Assembly (NCBI GenBank): GCA_001464585.1
Contig: LNFF01000006.1
Location: 1 to 64,000 of the forward strand
DNA length: 64,000 nt
Source: Gammaproteobacteria bacterium Ga0077554
GTDB taxonomy: Bacteria; Pseudomonadota; Gammaproteobacteria; Ga0077554; Ga007554
Reading direction: 5' to 3'
How positions within the stretch are numbered: position 1 is the first letter of the stretch; every line of letters begins with the position of its first letter. Position numbers and translations under genes: made by a program. The notes beneath the pieces are model-generated. The model did no database searches. It saw only the letters and a list, made by a program, of their open reading frames with translations, and was not told where the DNA came from. Shown in pieces: positions 99 to 60,740 of the stretch.

Positions 99-140
99 AA
101 GGATTCCTCCCCCCCGCTTTCGCGAGGGTCGGAATGACAT
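99..140. repeat. Partial copy of the dispersed ATGACA palindromic repeat
   Basis: The segment runs from AGGATTCCTC to GGAATGACAT and matches the right half of the family seen at 16669 and 35303. The left TGTCAT arm is missing, so this is a half copy. Confidence 0.5.
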
Positions 141-5451: not shown

Positions 5452-5593
5452 CTCCCCGCAGCTTGCTGCGTTTATTGTCATCGCCATTATCATTGCAGGC
5501 GAAGTGGGGGATCTTGCAAGATCTCTCAAAGTTGTCTCACCTTCGTTCGAGACTCGAGACAAGGATTTCTCGCTGTGCTCGAAATGACAGAGA
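5452..5593. repeat. Dispersed ATGACA palindromic repeat, variant copy
   Basis: The spacer between the signalling operon and ampG holds CGCAGCTTGCTGCG, a degenerate left arm (TTGTCATCGCC) and a right part containing TTCGAGACTCGAGACAAGG and CTCGAAATGACAG. The same right half occurs at 7795 and 28079. No gene is visible in this spacer. Confidence 0.65.
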
Positions 5594-7624: not shown

Positions 7625-7794
7625 AAACGGTACTCTCCTTGTGGTGTTAGGGTGGGCTTTCATGTTACCACAAAAAATATAGGCTTCATTTGAATGCGCG
7701 TCAAGTGGCTGCGCGTGTGGGTGGTGGTAACCTGATGGGTAAGGTATGATTTGTGCGTGATAGAGCACACGAGCTAGTCGTTTTAATTTCGTAA

Positions 7795-7953
7795 TGTCAT
7801 TTCGACCAACGGGAGAAATCCTTGTCTCGAGTCTCGAACGAAGGTGAGAAAACTTTGAGAGATGTAAGATCCCTCCCCCCGCTTTCGCAGGGGTCGGGAT
7901 GACAGTTATTCTTACACTCGGGATGACAGTAAATACCTTTGTTCGAAATGACA
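7795..7953. repeat. Dispersed ATGACA palindromic repeat, composite copy
   Basis: This copy starts TGTCATTTCGACCAACGGG and ends GTTCGAAATGACA, with two internal right ends (CGGGATGACAG). It contains the same TCTCGAGTCTCGAACGAAGG module seen at 5452 (inverted) and 59696. It fills most of the spacer upstream of lpxB. Confidence 0.75.
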
Positions 7954-7978
7954 ACATATCAGGGTTGTGTTTAATATC

Positions 7979-9151
7979 ATGCGTATCGGTATTGTAGCAG
8001 GCGAGGCCTCCGGCGATTTGCTGGGTGCGGGGATGATTCGCGCCATCAAGCAACGCCTACCTGATGCAGTGATTGAAGGCATCGCTGGGCCTGCCATGAT
8101 CGCGCAGGGGTGCACTGCACTGTTTCCCGCAGAAAAGCTCGCCGTGATGGGTTTTGTTGAAGTATTGGGACGCTATCGTGAGCTGCATGGCATACGCACG
8201 GAACTTATCCGCCACTTTCTCGACAATCCGCCCGATGTATTTATTGGCATTGACGCGCCCGATTTCAATTTGGGCTTGGAACACGCACTCAAAGAGGCAG
8301 GCATTCCCACCGTGCATTATGTCAGCCCCTCGGTATGGGCGTGGCGGCAATGGCGGCTGCGCAAGATTGCGCGATCCACGGATTTGATGCTGACGCTGTT
8401 TCCCTTCGAGGCGGTGTTTTATGAGGCGCATCATGTGCCGGTGCGGTTTGTCGGCCATCCACTGGCAGAAATGATCCCCGATGTTGCAGACCCGCAGGCC
8501 GCGCGTGTGGCATTGGGATTACCCCTGAAAAGTGAAATTGTCGCGCTGTTGCCCGGCAGCCGCATGAGTGAAGTGAATGCGCTGGGATTAACTTTTATTC
8601 AAGCCGCACAGTGGTGCGCCCAGCACCGCCCCGATGTGCATTTTGTAGCGCCGCTGGCGACGCCAGCAACGCGTGAACTGTTTGAGCAACTTGTGAAAAC
8701 CCATGCCCCCACTCTGTCGATAACAATTATCGCCGGGCGCTCGCGCGAAGTAATGGCCGCTGCCGATGTGGTGTTGCTGGCATCCGGCACTGCCACGCTG
8801 GAGGCGCTGTTATTAAAGCGACCCATGGTCGTAGCGTACAGGCTCGCGCGGCTAACGTATTGGCTTGCCAAATGGCTGGTGAAAGTGCCGTATGTGTCCT
8901 TGCCCAACCTGCTTGCAGGCAAAAGCATTGTCGAAGAATATATTCAGGATGCCGCTACGCCAGAAAATTTGGGCAAGGCTGTGGTACAGTTTCTTGAGCA
9001 GCCCCAGTCTGCGCAGGCGTTGCAAAAAATATTTTCGGACATCCATACTTCATTGCGCCAAGATGCAGATCAGCAAGCGGCCGAGGCAGTATTGGCATTG
9101 GCCAAAGACAGAACCTTGATCTCCCCTCTCCCGCGCACGGGAGAGGGTTAG
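7979..9151 (+). CDS. lpxB: Lipid-A-disaccharide synthase
   Basis: LpxB joins UDP-2,3-diacylglucosamine and lipid X to form the lipid A disaccharide, at the inner face of the cytoplasmic membrane. The 390-aa protein begins MRIGIVAGEASGD, the typical LpxB opening. It carries GIDAPDFN, HYVSPSVWAW, LPGSRMSEV and the donor-site ASGTATLEALL motif. ATG 7979 is preferred over GTG 7967 because family homology starts there. The last residues (ISPLPRTGEG) are encoded by a 10-bp inverted repeat that looks like a dispersed element, so the native C-terminus has been replaced or extended. The other lpx genes (lpxA, lpxD, fabZ), which often neighbour it, are absent here. Confidence 0.95.
   Translation: MRIGIVAGEASGDLLGAGMIRAIKQRLPDAVIEGIAGPAMIAQGCTALFPAEKLAVMGFVEVLGRYRELHGIRTELIRHFLDNPPDVFIGIDAPDFNLGLEHALKEAGIPTVHYVSPSVWAWRQWRLRKIARSTDLMLTLFPFEAVFYEAHHVPVRFVGHPLAEMIPDVADPQAARVALGLPLKSEIVALLPGSRMSEVNALGLTFIQAAQWCAQHRPDVHFVAPLATPATRELFEQLVKTHAPTLSITIIAGRSREVMAAADVVLLASGTATLEALLLKRPMVVAYRLARLTYWLAKWLVKVPYVSLPNLLAGKSIVEEYIQDAATPENLGKAVVQFLEQPQSAQALQKIFSDIHTSLRQDADQQAAEAVLALAKDRTLISPLPRTGEG
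9124..9147. repeat. Inverted repeat forming the lpxB 3' end
   Basis: A 10-bp perfect stem (CCCTCTCCCG / CGGGAGAGGG) with loop CGCA lies within the last codons of lpxB, and the stop follows at once. It may also act as an RNA hairpin at the transcript end. Confidence 0.6.
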
Positions 9152-10520: not shown

Positions 10521-10655
10521 TGTCATTTCGACCGTAGGCGACCGCCATGGATGGAGGAAGGTAGAGCAACGCAGGAGCAGTTGCCGGGAGAAATCCTGGA
10601 GGCATTTTAAAGAATCCAATAATATACAGATTTCTCCTCGCGGTCGAAATGACAA
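10521..10655. repeat. Dispersed ATGACA palindromic repeat, long modular copy
   Basis: Outer arms TGTCATTTCGACCG and CGGTCGAAATGACA are perfect complements. Between them lies a module with GCGACCGCCATGGATGG, AAGGTAGAGCAACGCAGG and AGCAGTTGCCGGGAGAAATCC, shared with 59696 and, inverted, with 55319. The rest of the 400-bp spacer (10660-10830) shows no gene. Confidence 0.85.
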
Positions 10656-16089: not shown

Positions 16090-16602
16090 ATGGCGACAGT
16101 ATTGGTGCTGCATGGCCCCAATCTTAATTTATTGGGTGGCCGCGAACCTCAGCATTATGGTCACACCTCCCTGGCGGTAATCAATGCGCGTCTGGAATCC
16201 CAGGCCCAGGCGGCGGGGCACGCGCTGGTGTGCTTTCAAAGTAATGCCGAGCATGATCTGGTTGAACGCATTCACGCCGCACAGGGAAGAGCGGAAGCGA
16301 AGGGTTCTGCTAGTGTCGCGGGAGGCACGATGCCGGGAGCGACCGCTGCGCAGCAGGAAGCCGTGGCATTTATCATTATCAACCCGGCGGCCTTTACACA
16401 CACCAGTGTGGCGTTACGCGATGCGCTGAGCGCAGTAAAAATCCCGTTTATCGAAGTGCATCTCTCCAACGTACATGCGCGCGAAGCGTTTCGCCATCAC
16501 TCCTATTTTTCTGATCTTGCGGTGGGGGTGATCAGCGGCTTGGGTCCACAGGGTTATGAGCTGGCTTTGCAGGCGGCGTTGGCCAGATTGCCTGCGAACT
16601 GA
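16090..16602 (+). CDS. aroQ: Type II 3-dehydroquinate dehydratase
   Basis: Shikimate-pathway enzyme that dehydrates 3-dehydroquinate. Family motifs are HGPNLNLLG (start), the catalytic Tyr in [53 protein letters not shown] and [15 protein letters not shown]. The length is 170 aa, while the family is usually about 145-150. The extra 20-odd residues (about 64-88, Gly/Ala-rich) come from an in-frame copy of a dispersed GC-rich repeat, placed between the HAAQG helix and the FIIINPAAF strand. The catalytic residues lie outside the insert, so the enzyme is probably active. It precedes accB-accC, as in many proteobacteria. Confidence 0.96.
16279..16356 (+). repeat. GC-rich RPE-like repeat inside aroQ
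   Basis: The segment begins GCACAGGGAAGAGCGGAAGC and continues through GGGAGGCACGATGCCGGGAG to a repeated GCGCAG. Its translated core ([15 protein letters not shown]) nearly matches the tandem insert in the CapA-like protein (45689). The flanking GCACAGGGA / GCGCAGCAG may be a target duplication or the unit's own ends. Confidence 0.75.
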
Positions 16603-16668
16603 AAAACAGTTTATTCGGTTCAGGTTGGAGCCCCTCGCTGCGCTTTCCCCGCAGCTTGCTGCGTTTAT

Positions 16669-16729
16669 TGTCATCCCGAACAAAGTGAGGGATCTTGCTT
16701 AAGATTCCTCGCAGCGCTCGGAATGACAT
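16669..16729. repeat. Dispersed ATGACA palindromic repeat, short copy
   Basis: TGTCATCCCGAACAAAGTG on the left and CAGCGCTCGGAATGACA on the right enclose GGATCTTGCTTAAGATTCC. It lies in the aroQ-accB spacer and is preceded by CCCGCAGCTTGCTGCG, also seen at 5452. Confidence 0.8.
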
Positions 16730-16754
16730 AGAATTTTATTGATATGGATGGATT

Positions 16755-20731: not shown

Positions 20732-20860
20732 TGTCATTTCGCCGTTCCTGTGCATCCATGCCCCCACGGCACTTGTGCGTCCCTGCACATCGAACCACCG
20801 GGAGAAATCTTGTCTTTAAAGTTCTTGCGCAGAGGATTTCTCCCGGTGGTCGAAATGACA
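20732..20860. repeat. Dispersed ATGACA repeat fused to a GC-rich RPE-like unit
   Basis: The outer arms (TTGTCATTTCG ... CGAAATGACA) belong to the palindromic family. Inside the left part, on the minus strand, is GTGCAGGGACGCACAAGTG to GCACAGGAACGGC, the unit found within four genes. It lies between arsS and arsM and shows that the two repeat families combine. Confidence 0.8.
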
Positions 20861-28078: not shown

Positions 28079-28212
28079 TGTCATTTCGAGCGTGGCGAGA
28101 AATCCCGGATCTCAAAAATTGAAACAGTCCAACAATCATCAAAGATTTCTCAAAGTTCTCTCACCTTCGTTCGAGATTCGAAACAAGGATTTCTTCCTGC
28201 GGTCGAAATGAT
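28079..28212. repeat. Dispersed ATGACA palindromic repeat
   Basis: Arms TGTCATTTCGAGCGTGGCG and GCGGTCGAAATGATAG enclose a body with CACCTTCGTTCGAGATTCG, shared with 5452 and 7795. It splits the cstA-ybdD transcription unit. Confidence 0.8.
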
Positions 28213-35302: not shown

Positions 35303-35359
35303 TGTCATTCCGAACACAGTGAGGAATCTTAAGATTTCTCGCTACGCTCGAAATGACAT
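35303..35359. repeat. Dispersed ATGACA palindromic repeat, short copy
   Basis: TGTCATTCCGAACACAGTG and TACGCTCGAAATGACA enclose GGAATCTTAAGATTTC. A half copy (TGTCATCTCGAAC) lies just before it at 35278. It occupies the place where sucD would be expected. Confidence 0.8.
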
Positions 35360-41002: not shown

Positions 41003-41109
41003 TGTCATTCCGAGCACCGCGAGGAATCCTTAAGATCCCCCACTGCGTTCGGGATGACAGTTTTTCTTTATGTTCGGGATGACAGTTATTCTTTGCGTTC
41101 GGGATAACA
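41003..41109. repeat. Dispersed ATGACA palindromic repeat with tandem right ends
   Basis: It starts TGTCATTCCGAGCACCGCG. The right end CGTTCGGGATGACAG is followed by two more right-end copies (GTTCGGGATGACAG, GTTCGGGATAACA). It lies between the divergent ends of arsC (start) and the pyruvate kinase gene (stop). Confidence 0.8.
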
Positions 41110-41143: not shown

Positions 41144-43078
41144 TTATTGGCCTTGCTCTTTTCCTGTTTGCGACCACCAGTGCAGTTTTCGTAACAAGGT
41201 TATCTTCTTGTCTTGATGGGCCTGCATGCGGGTGAGAATGTCGTCAAGCGTACGTATTGCCTCCAGAATGTGGGATCCCTTATTGAGCATGACGCATTCC
41301 GCTTGAACGCCTTGCGCCGCATCCGTGATCTCTGCGCGTGAAGGCAACCCGGTTTTTGCCAGGTTTTCTAGCACTTGGGTTGCCCAGATCACGGGTATAT
41401 GTGCCGCCTCACATAACCAAAGCATTTCCTCTTGCACTTCCGCCAGTCGTTCATAGCCGTATTCGACAGCCAGATCACCGCGTGCAATCATGATTCCAGC
41501 ACTGTTTGTACGCATCGCCGCGAGCAGAATTTCCGGGAGTTGCTGGAAGCCACGGGAGGTTTCAATTTTCAAGATGATCCCCATTTGTGGCGCATCAAGT
41601 TTGTGCAGCCATTCTTGCAGGTCAATTACATCGGAGGCCTGCTGCGTGAACGATAATCCCACCAGGTCCGCATGTTTCGCAACGAACTGCAAAGCTTCGA
41701 TATCTGCGGTGGAGAGCGCCGCTAACTTCAATTTGCTGTCAGGAAGATTAATGCCTTTTCCGGCACGCAGTTTATCGCCATTTTCCCGGGCATGGGCGAT
41801 AGTGACTTCTATCTGCTCTGTGGTGACTGATTTGATCACGCCGCCGATCTTTCCATCATCAAACCAGATTCGTTCGCCCGACCGTACGTCGGAGAATACT
41901 TCTGGCAGGGTGCAGGGAATTGTGGCTGGTTTTATCAGCCTGTCTTTGTCGTCATGCTGGGCAGGACGCCCAGGGGTGGCGGATTTCGTCAGGATAAGCG
42001 GATCATCTTTTTTCAGGGTGATATAGGCGTCTGTGTGGGGCAATTCCCCAACAATACATTTGGATGAGAGATAGGATTTATGGCCTTTTTCCGTCAAGCG
42101 CCGCAGCGTGAGTGTAGTTCCCGTTTGAACATAGGCGGATTTTTCGCATTCGGCGCAGCAAAAATCTGCTCCACCTTTGATGATATTGAGCCGCCTCTTC
42201 TTGCCGCGCGCGTCAGTGAATTCTACGGTATCCCCTTCCTGAAGGCGTTCCAGCCACTCCTGGGGGACGGGTAATATTGCATCAGCCCACGTAAATTGGC
42301 CAGGTACTGCCTTCGAGTCCGAGGGGATCAGGCCGATACGTGCGGGGCTCGTTACGCGGCCCAGACTGTCGTGCGGGGGATGCCATTTTACGCATTGGGA
42401 GCCGGCCTCGATCGCTCCGGTGCGTAGCTTGGGACCGGCAAGATCCATCAGGATAGGGCATTGTTTTCCGGATTCACGTACGGCTTTGCGTATTTTTGAG
42501 ATCATCCGTTTCCATGTGGCCGCATCGTCATGCGCACAATTGATGCGTGCGCAGTCCATACCGTTTTTCAGCCATCCCAGTACCATCGAGTAGTCGTCTG
42601 CGGCGTCGCCTGGCAAGGTGACCATGATGCGCACCTTCCTGCTTTTCGGGGGTGTGCCAAGCAGCGTGTCGGTGTGCGTATGCAACAAAAGCTCACCGAA
42701 AGCCGGGCCGCCGGGCTGATGTTCATCAAAATCCAGGGGTGATGTGGGATCCAGTAATCGGCGCAGCACCGTGAGGAGGGTGTCGATGGCGGCCAGCGCA
42801 TGCGATTCGGCACGGCCCAGCGACGATAGGCCGAAGCGCGCCAGCTTCTTTTGCAGGTCGCGGATATCATGGCGGCGCAGCGCGAGATAATGCACCAGAT
42901 TTCGTGCGCTGGCGACGTGATCGGGGTGAATGTCACGTGGCTCCGCAAAGAAGGCAGATTCCAACCTGGCCATGTCTTCGCGCAGAGTATTTAACTCGTC
43001 GATTAGCGCTGTTAGTTCGCCGTGTGTTTTGTCAGGTCGATTGTGATGCGGGGGTTTTGCCTTGGCTGCACGGGACAT
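41144..43078 (-). CDS. Pyruvate kinase-like protein with long N-terminal extension
   Basis: A 644-aa protein, well above the usual 470-500 aa for pyruvate kinase. Residues about 1-140 form a charged helical extension of unknown role. The kinase barrel follows: MVTLPGDAADDYSMVLGWLKNG, the substrate segment ARINCAHDD, LMDLAGPKLRTG, KHADLVGLSFTQQASDV and GIMIARGDLAVEYG. Residues in the insert domain include CCAECEK, a cluster of three cysteines that could bind metal. The regulatory C-terminal domain of classical pyruvate kinase is absent, since the protein ends soon after the barrel. ATG 43078 is chosen over TTG 43111. True pyruvate kinase activity is probable but not certain. Confidence 0.8.
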   Translation of the reverse strand: MSRAAKAKPPHHNRPDKTHGELTALIDELNTLREDMARLESAFFAEPRDIHPDHVASARNLVHYLALRRHDIRDLQKKLARFGLSSLGRAESHALAAIDTLLTVLRRLLDPTSPLDFDEHQPGGPAFGELLLHTHTDTLLGTPPKSRKVRIMVTLPGDAADDYSMVLGWLKNGMDCARINCAHDDAATWKRMISKIRKAVRESGKQCPILMDLAGPKLRTGAIEAGSQCVKWHPPHDSLGRVTSPARIGLIPSDSKAVPGQFTWADAILPVPQEWLERLQEGDTVEFTDARGKKRRLNIIKGGADFCCAECEKSAYVQTGTTLTLRRLTEKGHKSYLSSKCIVGELPHTDAYITLKKDDPLILTKSATPGRPAQHDDKDRLIKPATIPCTLPEVFSDVRSGERIWFDDGKIGGVIKSVTTEQIEVTIAHARENGDKLRAGKGINLPDSKLKLAALSTADIEALQFVAKHADLVGLSFTQQASDVIDLQEWLHKLDAPQMGIILKIETSRGFQQLPEILLAAMRTNSAGIMIARGDLAVEYGYERLAEVQEEMLWLCEAAHIPVIWATQVLENLAKTGLPSRAEITDAAQGVQAECVMLNKGSHILEAIRTLDDILTRMQAHQDKKITLLRKLHWWSQTGKEQGQ

Positions 43079-47585: not shown

Positions 47586-47832
47586 ACCGATTGAGGCCAG
47601 AATCATTCAAGACATTCTTCCTCCACCTGAAGAGCTTGCTTTCCGGGAGGAAGGGGTAAAAGTTACCATCGCCCTTAGCAAGAAGAGCATTGAGTTTTTC
47701 AAGTCTGAGGCAACCAAACACCATACCCAATATCAGCGCATGATCCGCAGGCTTATTGATGCCTATGTGGACACCTACGATAAACCTCTAACACCGCGCT
47801 CAACGCGTACTACCCGCAAGCGGACATCATAG
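47557..47832 (+). CDS. CopG/BrnA-like antitoxin, orphan
   Basis: A 91-aa protein. The C-terminal half carries a ribbon-helix-helix-like region (GVKVTIALSKKSIEFFKSEA, YQRMIRRLIDAYVDTY) and a basic tail (RSTRTTRKRTS). The N-terminal half probably binds the toxin. ATG 47557 lies inside the remnant of a BrnT gene, so the toxin partner is lost and this copy is an orphan. A truncated second copy of its 3' part lies at 48881. Confidence 0.75.
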   Translation: MSAKIKYTDEPIEARIIQDILPPPEELAFREEGVKVTIALSKKSIEFFKSEATKHHTQYQRMIRRLIDAYVDTYDKPLTPRSTRTTRKRTS

Positions 47833-47838
47833 AGAGGG

Positions 47839-47902
47839 TGTCATCTCGACCGCAGGGAGAGATCTTAATGACCAAGGATCTCTCCCTGCGGTCGAGATGA
47901 CA
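47839..47902. repeat. Near-perfect long hairpin of the ATGACA repeat family
   Basis: Two 26-bp arms (TGTCATCTCGACCGCAGGG... and complement) are perfect inverted repeats around a 12-nt centre. An almost identical copy lies at 49934. This is the best preserved form of the family in the window. Confidence 0.9.
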
Positions 47903-48066
47903 GTGCAGCCAGAAGTTCATTGGCAAGTGAGTGGCCGGATGGAATAAAATGAAATCCGGGGGACACTTCTGCCCCGGCACGTCGGTAACACATCGGTGCA
48001 TTCACCCCTGTTAATGTTGGGCTATCAAGCTTGCCATTTTTGTATATGATGATAACATACGTTAAC

Positions 48067-48381
48067 ATGATCGACTTTGCACGAGTAATCGGTTTCGACT
48101 GGGACGAAGGCAACGCCCGCAAGAGTGCGGACAAGCATAACGTTAGCCAGGCAGAAGCCGAACAAGCTTTTTTCAATGAACCGCTGTTGCTGGCGCCCGA
48201 CTTGAAGCATAGCCAGCAGGAGTTGCGTTGCCACGCGCTTGGCAAGACCGACGATGGCAGATTTCTGCATATTACCTTCACGTTGCGTGCCGCCGACACC
48301 TTGATCCGTGTAATTTCTGCCCGCGACATGCACCACAACGAGAGGAGCTTCTATGACCAAGCCAAAAAAGACGCCACCTGA
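48067..48381 (+). CDS. brnT: BrnT-family toxin
   Basis: A 104-aa ribonuclease-type toxin of the BrnT family. Typical features are GFDWDEGNARKSADKHNVSQAEAEQAF, the ELRCHALGKTDDGRFLHITFTLR beta-strands and LIRVISARDMHHNERSFY. ATG 48067 is chosen as the family homology begins there. The next gene overlaps its end by 29 bp and encodes the antitoxin, so this looks like an intact module. BrnT proteins cut RNA and are neutralised by BrnA. Confidence 0.88.
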   Translation: MIDFARVIGFDWDEGNARKSADKHNVSQAEAEQAFFNEPLLLAPDLKHSQQELRCHALGKTDDGRFLHITFTLRAADTLIRVISARDMHHNERSFYDQAKKDAT

Positions 48382-48625
48382 ATTTAAGACCGAAGCTGAG
48401 GAACGTACCTTTTGGGAGAGCCATGATTCCAGTGGCTATGTGGACTGGAGCCAAGCCAAGGCAACGCGCCTCCCTAATCTAAAGCCATCTACGAAAACCA
48501 TCTCGTTACGTTTGCCTATGGCGCTCCTGGAACGCATCAAGATCGAGGCGAACAAGCGGGACGTGCCTTATCAATCGCTGATTAAAGCATGGCTCGCTGA
48601 GGACGTAGATAAGCATCGGTTCTGA
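48353..48625 (+). CDS. BrnA/CopG-type antitoxin
   Basis: A 90-aa antitoxin with N-terminal toxin-binding region (FKTEAEERTFWESHDSSGYVDWSQAKA) and a ribbon-helix-helix domain (PSTKTISLRLPMALLERIKIEANKRDVPYQSLIKAWL). It overlaps the BrnT toxin gene. The AGGAG within the toxin gene (48340s) serves as its ribosome site. The pair is expected to autoregulate by antitoxin binding to its own promoter. Confidence 0.88.
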   Translation: MTKPKKTPPEFKTEAEERTFWESHDSSGYVDWSQAKATRLPNLKPSTKTISLRLPMALLERIKIEANKRDVPYQSLIKAWLAEDVDKHRF

Positions 48626-48657
48626 TAGTATTGTCGTCCATTCTTCATTCAGCGCTA

Positions 48658-48780
48658 ACACCGAAACTATAGGGTGTCATAGATGGCATCGTCGTCCTTG
48701 TCCCAGATTTTGGCGAAAGCGGTTTCTGAAGCGCCAGAGAAATCCCGCCGCAAACGTTTGTCCTGATCGCGTTGTTGTAA
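48658..48780 (-). pseudogene. Truncated duplicate of the antitoxin gene at 50538
   Basis: The minus strand encodes LQQRDQDKRLRRDFSGASET through KDDDAIYDTL and a stop. This is nearly identical to the C-terminal half of the antitoxin at 50538-50738; the DNA match also continues past the stop. The first half is missing, replaced by the TGGCATGAATCACCCGC repeat. It is a partial segmental duplication. Confidence 0.85.
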
Positions 48781-48792
48781 TAGGTACTTGGT

Positions 48793-48881
48793 CTGGCATG
48801 AATCACCCGCAAAGCAAACGTAGCCGGATGAAGTAGAGCATGTCCGCGTGGGCACAGAAGACGTGCCCACCCTACCGGACT
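48793..48881. repeat. Repeat of about 90 bp, copy 1 of 3
   Basis: The unit starts CTGGCATGAATCACCCGCAA, includes GTAGCCGGATGAAGTAGAG and ends CGTGCCCACCCTACCGGACT. Further copies are at 50090-50177 and 50797-50886. The copies flank or join the toxin-antitoxin modules. Confidence 0.85.
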
Positions 48882-49076
48882 TTCCGGGAGGAAGGGGTAA
48901 AAATTACCATTGCCCTTAGCAAGAAGAGCATCGAGTTTTTCAAGTCTGAAGCAACCAAGCGCCATACCCAGTATCAGCGCATGATCCGCAGGCTTATTGA
49001 TGTCTATGTGGACACCTATGATAAACCCTTGGCATCGCGCTCAACGCGTACCACCCGCAAGCGGACATCCGGCTAA
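48881..49076 (+). pseudogene. Truncated duplicate of the CopG-like antitoxin at 47557
   Basis: From TTTCCGGGAGGAAGGGG to the stop this segment repeats 47641-47832 with few changes (for example V for A in RRLIDVYVDTY). The first 28 codons are missing; the 90-bp repeat abuts the break. It is therefore a 5'-truncated copy without a proper start. Confidence 0.85.
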
Positions 49077-49254
49077 AAACAATTTGTCATCTCGACCGGA
49101 TTGCATCTGGGCTACGCTTGCCGCCTCGGCACGCCGGTAACGCATCGGTGCATTCACCCCTATCCATGTTGGGCTTCATTGCATTCAACCCACCCTGCCG
49201 AACTCAAGTGTGTTGAAGAGGTTCGTGTGTGGAGTGACTCAGGAGCCTATCGTA

Positions 49255-49307
49255 GAGTTAAGGGGCACGCCGTTTTACGGCGCGTCCGCTTGAACGCCGC
49301 GTTAGAC
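49255..49307 (-). repeat. attC-like integron recombination site, incomplete
   Basis: On the minus strand GTCTAACGCGGCGTTCAAGC, GGACGCGCCG-TAAAA-CGGCGTG and CCCCTTAACTC follow the order of a class 1 type attC (R'', L'', central hairpin, L'). The final GTTRRRY (R') is not present, so the site is truncated. It lies at the 3' end of the BrnA-like gene, where a cassette's attC is expected. Confidence 0.6.
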
Positions 49308-49524
49308 CAGCCGACAATTTTGCAAACTCGACTACTGAGCGTAGGGCGGCATTGACTGATGCTGAATCAGGAAAGGACTTGGCCAATTCAGGATCAACAA
49401 GTACCAGATTTGATCCCTCAACCTTCAAGCGATGGGCATAACGTCCGCGTTTTGCCTTGGAGAAATCAAAATCATATTCAGGGCGCAAGTCATCGCCTGG
49501 TTCATTTGGTGTTTTAGGTTTCAT
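49258..49524 (-). CDS. BrnA-like antitoxin with attC-encoded tail
   Basis: An 88-aa partner of the BrnT-like toxin encoded just upstream (11-bp overlap). The N-terminal DLRPEYDFDFSKAKRGRYAHRL segment resembles antitoxins of this class, which bind toxin and operator; SFPDSASVNAALRSVV follows. The last 18 or so residues (LTRRSSGRAVKRRAP) are encoded by an attC-like element, so the native C-terminus was replaced or extended when the cassette formed. Function as an antitoxin is inferred from the neighbour. Confidence 0.78.
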   Translation of the reverse strand: MKPKTPNEPGDDLRPEYDFDFSKAKRGRYAHRLKVEGSNLVLVDPELAKSFPDSASVNAALRSVVEFAKLSAGLTRRSSGRAVKRRAP

Positions 49525-49783
49525 AGCGTTTTCTCTCTTTGTTGGTTGCTACCCGGGCACTAATAATTCGGATTGTACCGCCTCGTTCAGTGTGGGAGAC
49601 CACCAGTAATTTTCCATCAACCCCCAGTCCGTAAGTGATTAGTCGAGCCTCTCCTCGGGAATGATCGGGGTCAGGAAACGTCGCTGACAGATCGTCCTCG
49701 AAGGCTCGCGCTGCTGCCTCAAAGGAGACGCCGTGCTTTCGCAGATTTGCTTCAGCCTTTTCGAGATTCCATTCAAATTTCAT
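49514..49783 (-). CDS. brnT: BrnT-family toxin, second module
   Basis: An 89-aa BrnT-type toxin: KFEWNLEKAEANLRKHGVSFEAAARAFEDD, DPDHSRGEARLITYGLG and TIRIISARVATNKERKRYE are family features. Its start lacks a clear Shine-Dalgarno, as is common for genes carried in integron cassettes. Its 3' end overlaps the antitoxin gene. It is not closely similar to the BrnT at 48067, so it was acquired separately. Confidence 0.88.
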   Translation of the reverse strand: MKFEWNLEKAEANLRKHGVSFEAAARAFEDDLSATFPDPDHSRGEARLITYGLGVDGKLLVVSHTERGGTIRIISARVATNKERKRYET

Positions 49784-49933
49784 GGGGCAATTTTAGCGCG
49801 TCTCGGCTGGCTATGTCTATCGGGTGATCTACACGGCCCTAGCTTCTTCAGGCGCGAGCCGAGTTGGTGCAGCGGTGAACATCGCCCTCGGCCGACGTGT
49901 GCATGTTACATTGGAAGCGGCTTAACAAAGGGC

Positions 49934-49998
49934 TGTCATCTCGACTGCAGGGAGAGATCTTACCTCACCAAAGATCTCTCCCTGCAGTCGAGATGACA
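49934..49998. repeat. Near-perfect long hairpin of the ATGACA repeat family, second copy
   Basis: The arms (TGTCATCTCGACTGCAGGG... and complement) are perfect over at least 26 bp. It differs from the copy at 47839 by a compensated base pair (C-G to T-A at arm position 13) and in the loop. A compensatory change suggests that pairing is preserved. Confidence 0.9.
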
Positions 49999-50089
49999 GT
50001 GCAGTCAGAAGCGCATTGGCAAATGGGTAACCCGGATGGAATAAAATGAAATCCGGGAGACATGCGCTTCATCCAGGCTACTTGTTTGG

Positions 50090-50177
50090 CCTGGCATGAG
50101 TCACCCGCAAAGCAAACGTAGCCGGATGAAGTAGAGTATGGCCGCGTGGGCACAAAAACGTGCCTACCCTACCAGAC
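50090..50177. repeat. Repeat of about 90 bp, copy 2 of 3
   Basis: Matches 48793-48881 with several substitutions (CTGGCATGAGTCACCCGC..., CGTGCCTACCCTACCAGACT). It lies just past the end of the MazF/PemK-type toxin gene. Confidence 0.8.
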
Positions 50178-50203
50178 TTCACAAAAAACGTTCAGCCCAA
50201 CGG

Positions 50204-50551
50204 CTACGCGTGCGCACCCAGAATTTTCTGAAGCACGCTACCCAGGTGATCGCGGTCGGCGGTTGACAACTGTCCCATACCCCTGACGATCTGGCTTTTC
50301 TCCAGTGTGGCAATCAAGGGCTTGAGCATGGAGGGTTTGACCAAACCCGCGGTCTGCCAGTCTTGCAGAAGGGCTTCGCCAGTGGCAAGTTCGGTTTTGA
50401 TCTGGCTGGTAATGGCCATCAATATCACGTCAGGCCGCGCCTGTTGGTAGGCGGAGCTACTGATGATCACGGCGGGGCGTTTCTTGGTCGCTTGCAGGTT
50501 AGTGAATGGAAAGGCCACCAACACCACATCACCGAAACTATAGGGTGTCAT
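50204..50551 (-). CDS. MazF/PemK-family toxin
   Basis: A 115-aa mRNA interferase of the PemK/MazF fold. It starts MTPYSFGDVVLVAFPFTNLQATKKRPAVIIS, the standard MazF opening with a conserved Arg-Pro, and has VILMAITSQI. ATG 50551 is selected; two further ATGs upstream (50560, 50569) lie inside the antitoxin gene. The 14-bp overlap with the antitoxin gene upstream shows an intact operon. Confidence 0.88.
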   Translation of the reverse strand: MTPYSFGDVVLVAFPFTNLQATKKRPAVIISSSAYQQARPDVILMAITSQIKTELATGEALLQDWQTAGLVKPSMLKPLIATLEKSQIVRGMGQLSTADRDHLGSVLQKILGAHA

Positions 50552-50738
50552 AGATGGCATCGTCGTCATTGTCCCAGATTTTGGCGAAAGCGGTTTCGGA
50601 AGCGCCAGAGAAATCCCGCCGCAAACGTTTGTCCTGATCGCGTTGTTGTAAAAAGTCGATGAAGTCTTCCACCTCCGCCAATCGGTCGGGTGAGAGATGT
50701 TCTATCTTTTCCAGCACGTGTTGTACCTGCGGATGCAT
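50538..50738 (-). CDS. Antitoxin of the MazF/PemK-type module
   Basis: A 66-aa antitoxin. It has the N-terminal helix pair of this class (LEKIEHLSPDRLAEVEDFIDFL) and a toxin-binding tail (SETAFAKIWDNDDDAIYDTL). ATG 50738 is preferred over TTG 50744, as AAGGAGG lies 7 bases before it. A truncated duplicate of its 3' half is at 48658. Confidence 0.85.
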   Translation of the reverse strand: MHPQVQHVLEKIEHLSPDRLAEVEDFIDFLQQRDQDKRLRRDFSGASETAFAKIWDNDDDAIYDTL

Positions 50739-50796
50739 GTTCAATCCTCCTTAGCAAGTGTAGTGTACGCTGTGCGTACCAGGAATAGGTGCTTGG

Positions 50797-50886
50797 CCTG
50801 GCATGAATCACCCGCAAAGCAAACGTAGCCGGATGAAGTAGAGCATGTCCGCGTGGGCACAGAAGACGTGCCCACCCTACTGGACT
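50797..50886. repeat. Repeat of about 90 bp, copy 3 of 3
   Basis: Almost identical to the copy at 48793 (CTGGCATGAATCACCCGC to CGTGCCCACCCTACTGGACT). It lies upstream of the MazF-type module, so copies 2 and 3 flank that module in direct orientation. Confidence 0.85.
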
Positions 50887-55318: not shown

Positions 55319-55654
55319 AACGTTATTTCGACCGAAGGGAGAAATCCTTGACTCGAATGAATGTGAGAGATCTTCCAGGATTTCTCCCGGCAACTGCTCC
55401 TGCGTTGCTCTACCTTCCGCCATCCATGGCGGTCGCCTTCGGTCGAAATGATAGGGGGTCGCTCGAAATGACCGGGGGTTTGTCATCCCGAACGATAGTG
55501 ACGACTGCAAGGATGCAGGAGGTAGAGCAACGCGCCGGGCAGGACGCCCAAGTGCGGTGAGCGCAGGGATGCGCAAGAACCGCCCGGGAGCAGTTGCCGA
55601 GGGATCCTGGTTTTTATTACAGTGAAAGATTCCCCACTTCGTTCGGAATGATAC
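55319..55654. repeat. Composite of three or more ATGACA-type repeat copies
   Basis: Left end TTATTTCGACCGAAGGGAG pairs with TTCGGTCGAAATGATAG at 55440. A further block, TTGTCATCCCGAACGATAG to TTCGTTCGGAATGATAC, follows. It includes the GGTAGAGCAACGC module in both orientations and a GC-rich unit (AAGTGCGGTGAGCGCAGGG). It appears to be nested insertion of repeat into repeat. Confidence 0.8.
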
Positions 55655-55686: not shown

Positions 55687-57951
55687 TTATTCAGGAATAA
55701 TGCCATGCAGTCTGTCGGAGCGGCGCCGATTCTTTTTGCTGTCACATAAGTTCAGGTAAAATTGCGCGGGGCCGTCGCTGGCGTGAATCTGTAATACGCC
55801 TGAAAAACCGTGCATTGCTTCCGTCCACTTTTGATCTTTGAATGCGGCGAGTGCTTCTGCGAAGCGTTGGCAGATTTGATGTTGCAATACGGTGGCATGG
55901 TGTTCGTGGCACATCAGTTCATAAACAGTGATAGGCTGGGTTTTGCCTGCCAGTGCAAAGGGGCCGAGTTCGCGGGTGAGAAAACCGCATGTCAAAAAGC
56001 CGTCGGCATTCATGAGTACATCATGTGATGCTAATACTTTCGTGCCCAGTTGTTTGTTCAAGGTCTGGATGCGTGTAGCGGTATTAACGATATCGCCCAC
56101 GGCGCGATATTCAAAGTGATCTACGGCGCCGACATTACCAAGCATCACGTTGCCGCTATGCAGGCCAATGCGTGTTGGTAGCGTGGCGCCTGTAGAATTC
56201 TTATTAATATTTTTATTGAAATGGGCCACAGAAGTTTCGATATCCAATGCGGCATCGCATGCCTGTTGATGTAAGGATGCGGTGGGTAAAGGGCTCGTCC
56301 ATAAGGCCAGCATGCAGTCTCCCACCACATCAGAAATTATGCCGCCGTGTTGGCGCACTGGCGTGAACAGTGCATGGTAATAGGCGTTCATCAGAATACG
56401 TAATTGCTCAGGAGGCAGTGTTTCCGAGAGTGACGTATATTTTTCAGCATCGGTACACAGGCATACGCCATGCACCAGTTCGCCGGTGGCGCCCGGTGTG
56501 GCGTTGTCAGCAGACATTTTATCGACGATGTTAGTGGGCACGTAATAGCCGAATGTTTCACGCAGGCGACGGCGTTCTTTGATGGCGTCGATATAGCGCC
56601 ATAGCAGGGCGCTAAACAGCGCAGCGGGTGCTTGTATCAGCAAAGGAACAGCTATCGGCAACCACACTGCAGTAGTGCTGAATTCATATAGGGCAAAAGC
56701 AAAATAGCTGCTCATCAGCGTTGTACTGGTGAGCAATGCGATGGCGATGGGCATCCATCGGCATACCATGCCCATGAGCAATCCCCACGCCAGAATAAGC
56801 GCGAGATGTGCTGCGGGGCTGGCGGGACGTACCGTAGAGTCTTCCAGTAAATTAGCAAATGCGGTTGCGGCAATTTCTACGCCGCTGATGTCCAGGCCGC
56901 TGTCATCTTGTGAAAATACCGTGTAAAAACCATCTTTCTGTTCGGGTTGGCGCTGTTCGGAAAAACCCACGAACACGACTTTATCTTTGAAGCCTTGCGA
57001 CGATGACAGCGCCTGATGATAGGGGATGTTGGTAATGGTGTGCGGTGGGCCATACAGATTCAGGTAGGGGTGATTGTTGCCGGAGTACATTTTTACCAGG
57101 GCGCATAGCAGGTGCCGATTAGAACTGGTAGATGTGGCGAGCTTGTCCAGCATCGTTTCTTGCAGGGAGGGATCCTGATTAAATAAATCACGCACGGTTT
57201 CTATCAGGGGTTGCAAGCTGTGATCCTGGAGCGGAGTGGTGGCCGCTCCTGCGCATCCTCCGCCCGCGGCACTTGCGCATCCCTGCGCGGCGGGCAGGCG
57301 CGCCGCATAAGCCGGGTTTGCCTGGATCAGCAGGGCGCGGAATTCGTCGTAAGCCGGTAGCGCATAGGCCTGTAATACTGTGGTAGGCAGGGTTGGCACA
57401 TCGTGCGCGCCGGGTTTGAATGTCCAGAAACGGTTGACTTTAACCGGCACTTTGGGCAGCGGAAACGGCACCGTGGCCAGCGCGTTTGCGGAAAACAACG
57501 GCAAGGGTGGCGCGAGCCGTTCCAGTGTCATGGCCGGCCCCGTGCCCTGTGACACGGTTTCGCGTTTCAGCGCTTCCACCAGCACTACGTTGCGTGCATT
57601 GCGCATGGCTTGAGCAAGGCGTTGATCGTCTGCGGCGTTGCGCGGCTCTTCAAACAGTAAATCAAAAACAATGACGCGCGCGCCCTGTTGGGCTAGATTG
57701 TCGATCAGACGCGCATGGTAGCTGCGCGGCCATTTGGCGGGCTGGTTGGGCAAGCCAAAGACATCAGAGGATTCTTTGTTGAGGGTGACGAGCACAACAT
57801 CGGGCGGCGCTGTTTGCGCGCCACGCAGGGTGAACAGGCGATCCAGCCCCAGATTTTCTTCCAGTAACGCGCCAAAAGGAGTTAAACTTACTAACAGCCC
57901 TAACAGGCTGGTAAGCAAGCCTAATATTAATGCCTTGGCAAGGCGGTTCAT
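55687..57951 (-). CDS. CHASE2-domain class III adenylate/guanylate cyclase
   Basis: Membrane cyclase of 754 aa. After one N-terminal helix comes a periplasmic CHASE2 sensor (about 35-370: LITLNKESSDVF-like start, ARVIVFDLLFEEPRN, VVFVGFSEQRQ), then three helices (about 375-450) and a class III cyclase domain (about 490-670: VCLCTDAEKYTSLSE with metal Asp, SDVVGDCMLALW, RIGLHSGNVMLGNVG, FEYRAVGDIVNTATRIQ). Substrate choice (ATP or GTP) is not clear by eye. CHASE2 residues about 220-235 carry a dispersed GC-rich repeat (PAAQGCASAAGGGCAG). It is followed by the FecR-domain gene and faces a Crp/Fnr gene 33 bp away, a potential cAMP responder. Confidence 0.9.
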   Translation of the reverse strand: MNRLAKALILGLLTSLLGLLVSLTPFGALLEENLGLDRLFTLRGAQTAPPDVVLVTLNKESSDVFGLPNQPAKWPRSYHARLIDNLAQQGARVIVFDLLFEEPRNAADDQRLAQAMRNARNVVLVEALKRETVSQGTGPAMTLERLAPPLPLFSANALATVPFPLPKVPVKVNRFWTFKPGAHDVPTLPTTVLQAYALPAYDEFRALLIQANPAYAARLPAAQGCASAAGGGCAGAATTPLQDHSLQPLIETVRDLFNQDPSLQETMLDKLATSTSSNRHLLCALVKMYSGNNHPYLNLYGPPHTITNIPYHQALSSSQGFKDKVVFVGFSEQRQPEQKDGFYTVFSQDDSGLDISGVEIAATAFANLLEDSTVRPASPAAHLALILAWGLLMGMVCRWMPIAIALLTSTTLMSSYFAFALYEFSTTAVWLPIAVPLLIQAPAALFSALLWRYIDAIKERRRLRETFGYYVPTNIVDKMSADNATPGATGELVHGVCLCTDAEKYTSLSETLPPEQLRILMNAYYHALFTPVRQHGGIISDVVGDCMLALWTSPLPTASLHQQACDAALDIETSVAHFNKNINKNSTGATLPTRIGLHSGNVMLGNVGAVDHFEYRAVGDIVNTATRIQTLNKQLGTKVLASHDVLMNADGFLTCGFLTRELGPFALAGKTQPITVYELMCHEHHATVLQHQICQRFAEALAAFKDQKWTEAMHGFSGVLQIHASDGPAQFYLNLCDSKKNRRRSDRLHGIIPE
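57241..57294 (-). repeat. GC-rich RPE-like repeat inside the CHASE2 cyclase
   Basis: The minus strand reads GCGCAGGGATGCGCAAGTG, then CCGCGGGCGGAGGATGCGC and AGGAGCGGCC. It is the same unit as at 2843, in a different reading frame (QGCASAAGGGCAGAA). It sits in a loop of the sensor domain without disturbing the frame. Confidence 0.8.
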
Positions 57952-59653: not shown

Positions 59654-59695
59654 CATTTTTTATAGTTTTTAGGCAATTTGTGATGTGGAGTATGT

Positions 59696-59861
59696 TGTCA
59701 TTTCGACCGAAGGCGACCGCCATGGATGGCGGAAGGTAGAGCAACGCAGGAGCAGTTGCCGGGAGAAATCCTTGTCTCGAACGAATGTGGGAGATCTTTA
59801 ATATTGTTGAACTCTTTCAATGTTTGAGCCTTCAGGATTTCTCGCTTTGCTCGAAATGACA
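59696..59861. repeat. Dispersed ATGACA palindromic repeat, long modular copy
   Basis: It starts TGTCATTTCGACCGAAGGCG and ends TTTGCTCGAAATGACA. It contains the module ACCGCCATGGATGGCGG, AGGTAGAGCAACGCAGG, AGCAGTTGCCGGGAG as at 10521. It lies between the lpxL stop and the stop of the minus-strand glycosyltransferase gene. Confidence 0.85.
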
Positions 59862-59876
59862 CATACCAGGACTTCC

Positions 59877-60740
59877 TTAGTCATCACCATTGATTTTTTC
59901 AACGCTGGACTTTTGTGGTGGCAATGGGTCGCCGTGCTGTTGTGTCTGATGATGTTCATAGAGCTTGGCATATTTTAAAAAAACATAAAATGCGCCGATC
60001 ACAGCGGTAATAAATCCTGCCCAGCCGTTGAGAAAGTTGCGCTTGAAAACATAAGTGCGCAGAAAATACAGCGGCGGATAAAACACCATGATCCAGGGAT
60101 TGGCGCGCGCGCCTTTGGCAATTTTTTGCTGGGCCATGCCCGTGGAATATTTGTTGGTCTTGTCCACTTTCAGGTGGATGCTGGTTTCGCCGTAATGATA
60201 AAATGGCAGGTCGATACGTTTGATGGCGCCATCGACTTCGGGGCTTTCGTGGATTGGGGCGGTGCTAATCCTGCCCTTGGTTTTGTCGAACAGGCGCAGA
60301 AAATAATTCAGGCGCACGTTGGGGTTGTTCATGCGCCAGAAGAGTTGTTCCAGGCGCGGGAACTCATAGCCATCAGCGCCGTTATTTGCACTGCCAAGCC
60401 CAGCGGTGAGTAAACGCTTGATTTCGTCTTGCAGGGCGGGTGAGAGAGCTTCGTCGGAATCGAGCAACAGCACCCAGCGATGAGTGGTGTGGTCCAGCGC
60501 CATTTGTTTTTGTTTGCTGTAACCCATGAACGGATGCCGGAAGATACGGCAACCGTAGCGTTGAGCGATCTCTACAGTGGCGTCATTGCTGAATGAGTCC
60601 AGCACGATGATTTCATCAGCCCACTTAACGCTTTCCAGGCACACCGGCAAGGTACGCTCATTGTTGTACGTGGTAATGAAAACAGAAAGTTTTTCCAAAG
60701 TGAGGGGACATCCTGGTAATTTGACTGGGGTGAAAAACAT
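59877..60740 (-). CDS. Family 2 glycosyltransferase (KdtX/WaaE-like)
   Basis: A GT2 enzyme of about 287 aa, close to the lipopolysaccharide core transferases of the WaaE/KdtX type. It has LSVFITTYNNERTLPVCLESVKWADEIIV, the DSFSNDATVEIA segment, the DxD-like LLLDSDEAL, NPNVRLNYFLRLFDK and a C-terminal hydrophobic region with KRNFLNGWAGFITAVIGAFYVFLKY. The start is unsure: ATG 60740 is used, ATG 60809 would add 23 residues, and TTG 60698 just before EKLSVF would match the family length best. Confidence 0.87.
   Translation of the reverse strand: MFFTPVKLPGCPLTLEKLSVFITTYNNERTLPVCLESVKWADEIIVLDSFSNDATVEIAQRYGCRIFRHPFMGYSKQKQMALDHTTHRWVLLLDSDEALSPALQDEIKRLLTAGLGSANNGADGYEFPRLEQLFWRMNNPNVRLNYFLRLFDKTKGRISTAPIHESPEVDGAIKRIDLPFYHYGETSIHLKVDKTNKYSTGMAQQKIAKGARANPWIMVFYPPLYFLRTYVFKRNFLNGWAGFITAVIGAFYVFLKYAKLYEHHQTQQHGDPLPPQKSSVEKINGDD

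Follow-up and report, generated by a model that had tools for sequence, protein, structure and literature searches.

Which element has multiplied in the spacers of this genome, and what moves it? The DNA belongs to Gammaproteobacteria bacterium Ga0077554 (GCA_001464585.1, here G000), and the window is the whole stretch of 64,000 nucleotides that was analysed, LNFF01000006.1 positions 1-64,000. A preliminary description had listed at least 13 copies of a palindromic repeat, nearly always in spacers, and had likened them to REP/BIME systems that are moved by a RAYT transposase. The repeat is indeed present at 13 of the 13 places. Approximately 23 hairpin units are distributed over these 13 spacer sites. 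That they are located in spacers is borne out at 5452, 7795 and 16669: these sites lie in gaps between blocks which are conserved with a sister species, and therefore are spacers. The site first noticed, 10521-10655, is an inverted pair, whose plus-strand member (10521-10594) has a long loop and whose minus-strand member (10630-10654) is compact. The units of the window are:

103-139, minus strand: TGTC REP with a lengthened inner stem (TGTCATTCCGACCCTCGCGAAAGCGGGGGGGAGGAATCC)
5565-5589, minus strand: TGTC REP, ATTTC-GC class
7795-7819, plus strand: TGTC REP, ATTTC-CC class, loop AAC; an identical unit is found upstream of the nuclease gene described below
7869-7928, minus strand: REP with a lengthened inner stem (7869-7904) and an upstream half-REP (to 7928)
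10521-10594, plus strand: long-loop REP with a nested GGATG-type palindromic insert in its inner part
10630-10654, minus strand: compact REP, inverted partner to 10521
16669-16693, plus strand: REP, ATCCC-AC class
16704-16728, minus strand: REP, ATTCC-GC class, partner to 16669; the orthologous spacer of G001 is without a REP
20732-20808, plus strand: REP in two parts, with a palindromic D5-family element (20741-20792) nested between them
20836-20860, minus strand: REP, inverted partner to 20732
28079-28103, plus strand: REP of the ATTTC-GC class, with a degenerate inverted partner whose end is near 28211
35303-35327, plus strand: REP, ATTCC-AC class
35334-35358, minus strand: REP, ATTTC-GC class, partner to 35303
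41003-41027, plus strand: REP, ATTCC-GC class
41035-41109, minus strand: REP (41035-41059), then two half-REPs on the head side at a spacing of 25 nt
47839-47863, plus strand: REP, ATCTC-CC class; forms one perfect long hairpin together with 47878-47902
47878-47902, minus strand: REP, partner to 47839
49934-49958, plus strand: REP, ATCTC-CT class
49974-49998, minus strand: REP, partner to 49934
55321-55345, plus strand: REP with head CGTT; a degenerate REP is at the orthologous place in G001
55377-55451, minus strand: arm of a long-loop REP, matching the complement of 59698-59772 at 100% over 75 nt (inverted copy)
59696-59769, plus strand: long-loop REP with a nested palindromic insert; G001 is without a REP here
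59837-59861, minus strand: REP, ATTTC-GC class, partner to 59696

The hairpin unit is built according to a fixed plan. TGTC is followed by a 5-bp stem which begins with AT, a GA/GA mismatch, a 2-bp stem and a 3-nt loop; the return arm comes next and a C(C)TT tail ends the unit. The usual layout is an inverted pair with TGTC outermost (19 of 29 neighbour pairs in the 268,671 bases read). Under a strict rule, which asks for a TGTC-like head, a 5-nt stem and GA on either side, the window has 15 true units. A looser rule yields 26 rows, overlapping readings and one chance match included, as against a mean of 0.2 and a maximum of 1 in shuffled windows. One match of either rule, at 42910 (strict) and at 56582 (loose), was discarded as chance.

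From the same 268,671 bases 72 units were collected, picked on a TGTCAT head. In 66 of the 72, two outer stem positions form Watson-Crick pairs; 35-36 would be expected from independent columns. For one inner stem pair the figures are 61 observed and 23 expected. The stem positions covary; thus, the structure has been selected or copied as a hairpin. The TGTC tag is common to the window units and to 72/72 units of the sample, which was chosen on that head, and the same selection fixes the AT with which the stem starts; in the facing arm, T is found in 64/72 and A in 68/72. A CGTC tag is present in related loci. The tails in the sample are CTTG, CTTA and CCTT, not CCA, the tail of most fully paired relatives. 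An Rfam search of the window reported tRNAs only.

These features recall the CGTC superfamily of REPs, which have a CGTC or often a TGTC tag, a stem that opens with AT and a short unpaired tail, and which occur in pairs (Di Nocera, De Gregorio, Rocco, 2013; PMC3733652). Most of their tails fit CCA, and no transposase association was reported (PMC3733652). That paper gives a stem of 8-9 bp and a loop of 4-5 nt, with mismatched stem letters printed in lower case. The window units share the TGTC tag, the AT start of the stem, the short tail and the pairing. They differ in a conserved GA/GA mismatch, in a 3-nt loop and in a CTT/CCTT tail instead of CCA. Their stem reads 5 bp, GA/GA, 2 bp, where the paper gives 8-9 bp.

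The interiors had been described as mixed from modules. The modules are real, yet three different things were mixed in them: covarying hairpin classes, a nested GGATG-type element, and half-REPs. The hairpin classes have ATTTC, ATTCC, ATCCC or ATCTC stems, each with a matching partner. The second palindromic element, made of GGATG hairpins, is nested in REP arms at 10521, 20732, 55377 and 59696. A half-REP, with head and left arm only, precedes a full unit by about 19-26 nt. The proposed assembly by insertion or recombination is a possible origin that fits the nested elements and the half-REPs.

How far has the repeat spread? Genome-wide counts were obtained from pattern searches and from about 269 kb of sequence stretches. 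The pattern TGTCATYYCGANYNNNRNGAGRRATC, with at most 2 mismatches, has 394 matches in the 2.9-Mb genome (44 contigs); the reversed pattern has 0. With one mismatch allowed, three species of the genus have 377, 79 and 25 copies (79 in G001), and five genomes from other genera of the family 0-1. The burst of this repeat is limited to the genus. In the sister genome G001 the spacers orthologous to 7750-7979, 16603-16735 and 59671-59908 contain no REP, and at the 55319 site a degenerate REP occupies the orthologous place; the spacers are too diverged to show insertion junctions. Counts and spacers together fit recent gain, with decay or conversion afterwards. The kinship with REP/BIME sequences was thus well chosen: this is an amplified hairpin family with many copies, inverted pairs, a genus-limited burst and no REP in three G001 spacers.

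The presumed mover is a different matter. According to the preliminary description the repeats would be REPINs moved by a RAYT, i.e., a Y1/HUH transposase. The genome has five Y1_Tnp matches, one of which comes near the NCBIfam model REP_Tyr_transpos (78.5 bits; cut-off 80), and the head-to-head paired layout resembles a REPIN. Yet none of the five is bracketed by TGTC hairpins, and in this genome and its class together the figure is 0 of 35 Y1_Tnp loci. The presence of Y1_Tnp does not predict that of the repeat (18/24 vs 55/90 genomes, p 0.24, in 114 genomes of the class). The repeats carry a TGTC head in place of GTAG, and the CGTC repeats were likewise without a transposase association in Di Nocera et al. 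(2013; PMC3733652). A RAYT as mover is very improbable. Matching ends are found elsewhere: none of these 35 Y1_Tnp loci has them, a small GIY-YIG nuclease gene does.

This gene is a stand-alone ORF of 97 residues outside the window (G000:C9:87407-87700; PF01541, E 3e-16). It lies exactly between inverted TGTC REPs, its start codon directly after the upstream REP and its stop codon abutting the downstream one. The catalytic residues Y10, Y21, G23, R31, H35, E68 and N87 are conserved in 107-109 of 109 aligned rows. Structure prediction (pLDDT 92.5) yields a fold like those of UPF0213 and Slx1, a nuclease of branched DNA; a PDB search by sequence gave no match. In the sister species G002 the nuclease gene is bracketed by inverted REPs in the same way. 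Since the gene occupies the same place in both species, it has made no recent hop. In G002 contig C7 (L053, about 1882-2039) a second, internally deleted copy adjoins the intact one; between its two REPs only the 5' and the 3' end of the gene are left, in this order. Judged by its sequence, this element likely captures the birth of a gene-less REP pair; no nuclease-gene fragments were found in the other REP pairs of G000. G006, from another genus of the family, has a nuclease with 49% identity which is bracketed by CGTC-type hairpins. Other small GIY-YIG genes of the genus (G000 C26, G002 C64) have no such hairpin nearby. In G001, with its 79 REPs, no nuclease was found in an assembly that is 85% complete.

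The arrangement is not a peculiarity of one genus. A contig scan with a three-sequence alignment returned 80 nuclease loci from more than 20 phyla, selected by protein and not by repeats. Inward hairpins within 100 nt on both sides bracket 34 of the 80 nuclease ORFs compared to 2 of 439 other ORFs of these loci (p 1e-28); counting ORFs with such a hairpin on one side or both, the numbers are 62/80 and 30/439. Shuffled upstream flanks gave 10 in 1600. At roughly one in four of the 80 genes no hairpin could be recognised over this distance of 100 nt. In a further sample from the class of the window, hairpins stand on at least one side of 21 of 29 nuclease genes, and 13 of 29 have them on both. 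Across 114 genomes of this class, at least 5 ATTCC-type REPs were counted in 13 of 22 genomes with the nuclease and in 11 of 92 without a detected nuclease (p 1e-5). The GIY-YIG nuclease, not a RAYT transposase, is the likely partner and spreader of the repeats. In the literature searched, no link between GIY-YIG nucleases and these repeats was found, and the repeat motif occurred only in seven unrelated papers.

Half-REPs are seen in the window (7869-7928, 41035-41109) and at nuclease loci of many phyla (L059-L133). At nuclease loci 47 of 285 units have one upstream, in G000 8 of 76; in an equal stretch after the tail the numbers are 7 and 1. Nuclease cuts may have left them behind, or they may be a further site of binding at a distance of about two helical turns.

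Two hairpin types exist at the nuclease loci, one with the GA mismatch and one fully paired. Both ends of a gene have the identical type in 49 of 53 cases; in shuffles the mean is 26 and the largest value 41. The nuclease tree (108 members) has 4 changes of hairpin type, compared to 28 with shuffled labels (0 of 500 as low), and in the 57 rows of known phylum 4 changes of type are set against 38 of phylum; these counts are approximate, since few columns went into the tree and many of its forks are weak. G026 and G114 possess one nuclease of each type apiece, and each of these nucleases has its own hairpin. At residue 78, K/R is found in 36/36 GA-type nucleases and W in 49/52 of the fully paired type; position 18 is G in 47/52 of the latter, and among GA-type nucleases G is not a common residue there. 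Shared descent inflates the counts at both positions. Genomes with a GA-type nuclease contain 378, 239, 42, 26, 23 and 6 GA-type REPs, those with the other type 0-14. Nuclease and hairpin type co-evolve, and the REP type of a genome matches the type of its nuclease.

With these data a further view can be judged, namely that the hairpins do no more than terminate transcription or stabilise mRNA in the ordinary way, that they were multiplied by chance duplication, and that the GIY-YIG neighbourhood is incidental. The spacer location would agree with it, and paired units fold stably (z -3.8 to -12.2). However, a lone unit folds weakly (z -0.75), and the bracketing is both-sided, inward and nuclease-specific and tracks the nuclease tree. 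This view is disfavoured by the present data, and we give it hardly any credence.

Probably, the window repeats are a GA-mismatch branch of the CGTC/TGTC REPs and belong to a system of two parts, one being a stand-alone GIY-YIG nuclease with a length of about 97 residues, the other the hairpin, which forms the inverted termini of the nuclease gene. The anatomy, the bracketed genes of many phyla, the coupling of types and the lineage-limited burst were observed, and from them a mechanism may be drawn up. The nuclease would recognise its own hairpin, probably as single-stranded DNA, and would cut in or near it. Repair from another copy could then spread the hairpin, and sometimes the gene, in a homing-like manner. 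The dispersed REP pairs would be gene-less derivatives of the nuclease element, as a MITE is to its parent. GIY-YIG enzymes are hydrolases, for which we know of no strand-transfer activity; because of this, entry of a REP into a REP-free site would need host repair. A more general proposition is offered tentatively, at somewhat less than even chances: the CGTC/TGTC REPs of many phyla would be termini and gene-less offspring of one widespread selfish element with a stand-alone GIY-YIG nuclease as its only gene, which would spread by cutting its own hairpins and being copied in, in a homing-like way and without a transposase, and residue 78 (K/R or W) would help to set the hairpin architecture that is accepted.

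The nuclease and its hairpin might instead serve the host, in defence or in DNA uptake. Ssn, reportedly described by Chenal et al. in Nature Communications in 2025, is said to be a GIY-YIG family of site-specific single-strand nucleases with the NTS repeat of Neisseria as target. This repeat, with which the nuclease is paired, is reportedly present in hundreds of copies, and many homologues are said to have their own target sequence. By analogy, cutting of single-stranded DNA at the repeat would tune natural transformation, and the repeats would be kept as useful and not spread by themselves. That Ssn is reportedly a GIY-YIG single-strand nuclease acting on a repeat with hundreds of copies speaks for such a role, as does the strong coupling of enzyme and hairpin. 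On the other hand, the patchy spread across phyla looks selfish, and so do the genus-limited burst, the internally deleted copy beside its parent gene and the in-frame stops or frameshifts in 6 of the 80 nuclease genes. A host function as the reason for the repeats appears unlikely, even if it deserves serious consideration; it does not exclude homing-like spread, and one enzyme could do both. The disrupted genes (L085, L086, L088, L096, L103, L120) are as expected of a selfish gene with turnover.

With Ssn, the self-spreading nuclease element proposed here has in common the GIY-YIG fold, the intact catalytic residues and the link of a nuclease to a genome-wide repeat. Here, perhaps in contrast to Ssn, the repeats bracket the gene as inverted termini and form gene-less pairs, and two hairpin architectures track one residue. 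With RAYT-REPIN systems it shares dispersed inverted hairpin pairs with the tags outside, an enzyme gene flanked by the repeat, and patchy genus-level bursts; it differs by a GIY-YIG hydrolase in place of Y1/HUH, a TGTC/CGTC tag in place of GTAG, and by having no Y1 association. Like the GIY-YIG homing endonucleases, it would be a small selfish nuclease gene spread by cut and copy, yet it has no intron and no fused DNA-binding modules, and its proposed target is the terminal hairpin of the element itself. The tie to a GIY-YIG nuclease also distinguishes the window-type repeats from the CGTC superfamily as described. CGTC/TGTC repeats are widespread dispersed hairpins of bacteria which in 2013 were left without a mover. 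A link to one small nuclease family, a hairpin code and a single-residue candidate for specificity make the question of the mover testable at the bench, and would widen the Ssn-type pairs of repeat and nuclease into a general class of mobile elements.

Two further kinds of repeats were seen in the window. Around the REP pairs at 47839 and 49934 direct repeats of 100-190 nt, mostly of 92-97% identity (D1, D2, D4), extend over 47639-50886; they are a local duplication. A 75-nt palindromic repeat of the D5 family (16276-16350) is inserted in frame in an aroQ-like gene (ORF 16090-16602, plus strand); the insert is missing from this gene in G001 and G002. More D5 copies lie within ORFs at 2844, 45751 and 57241, and a palindromic repeat inside ORFs is reminiscent of the Rickettsia palindromic elements.
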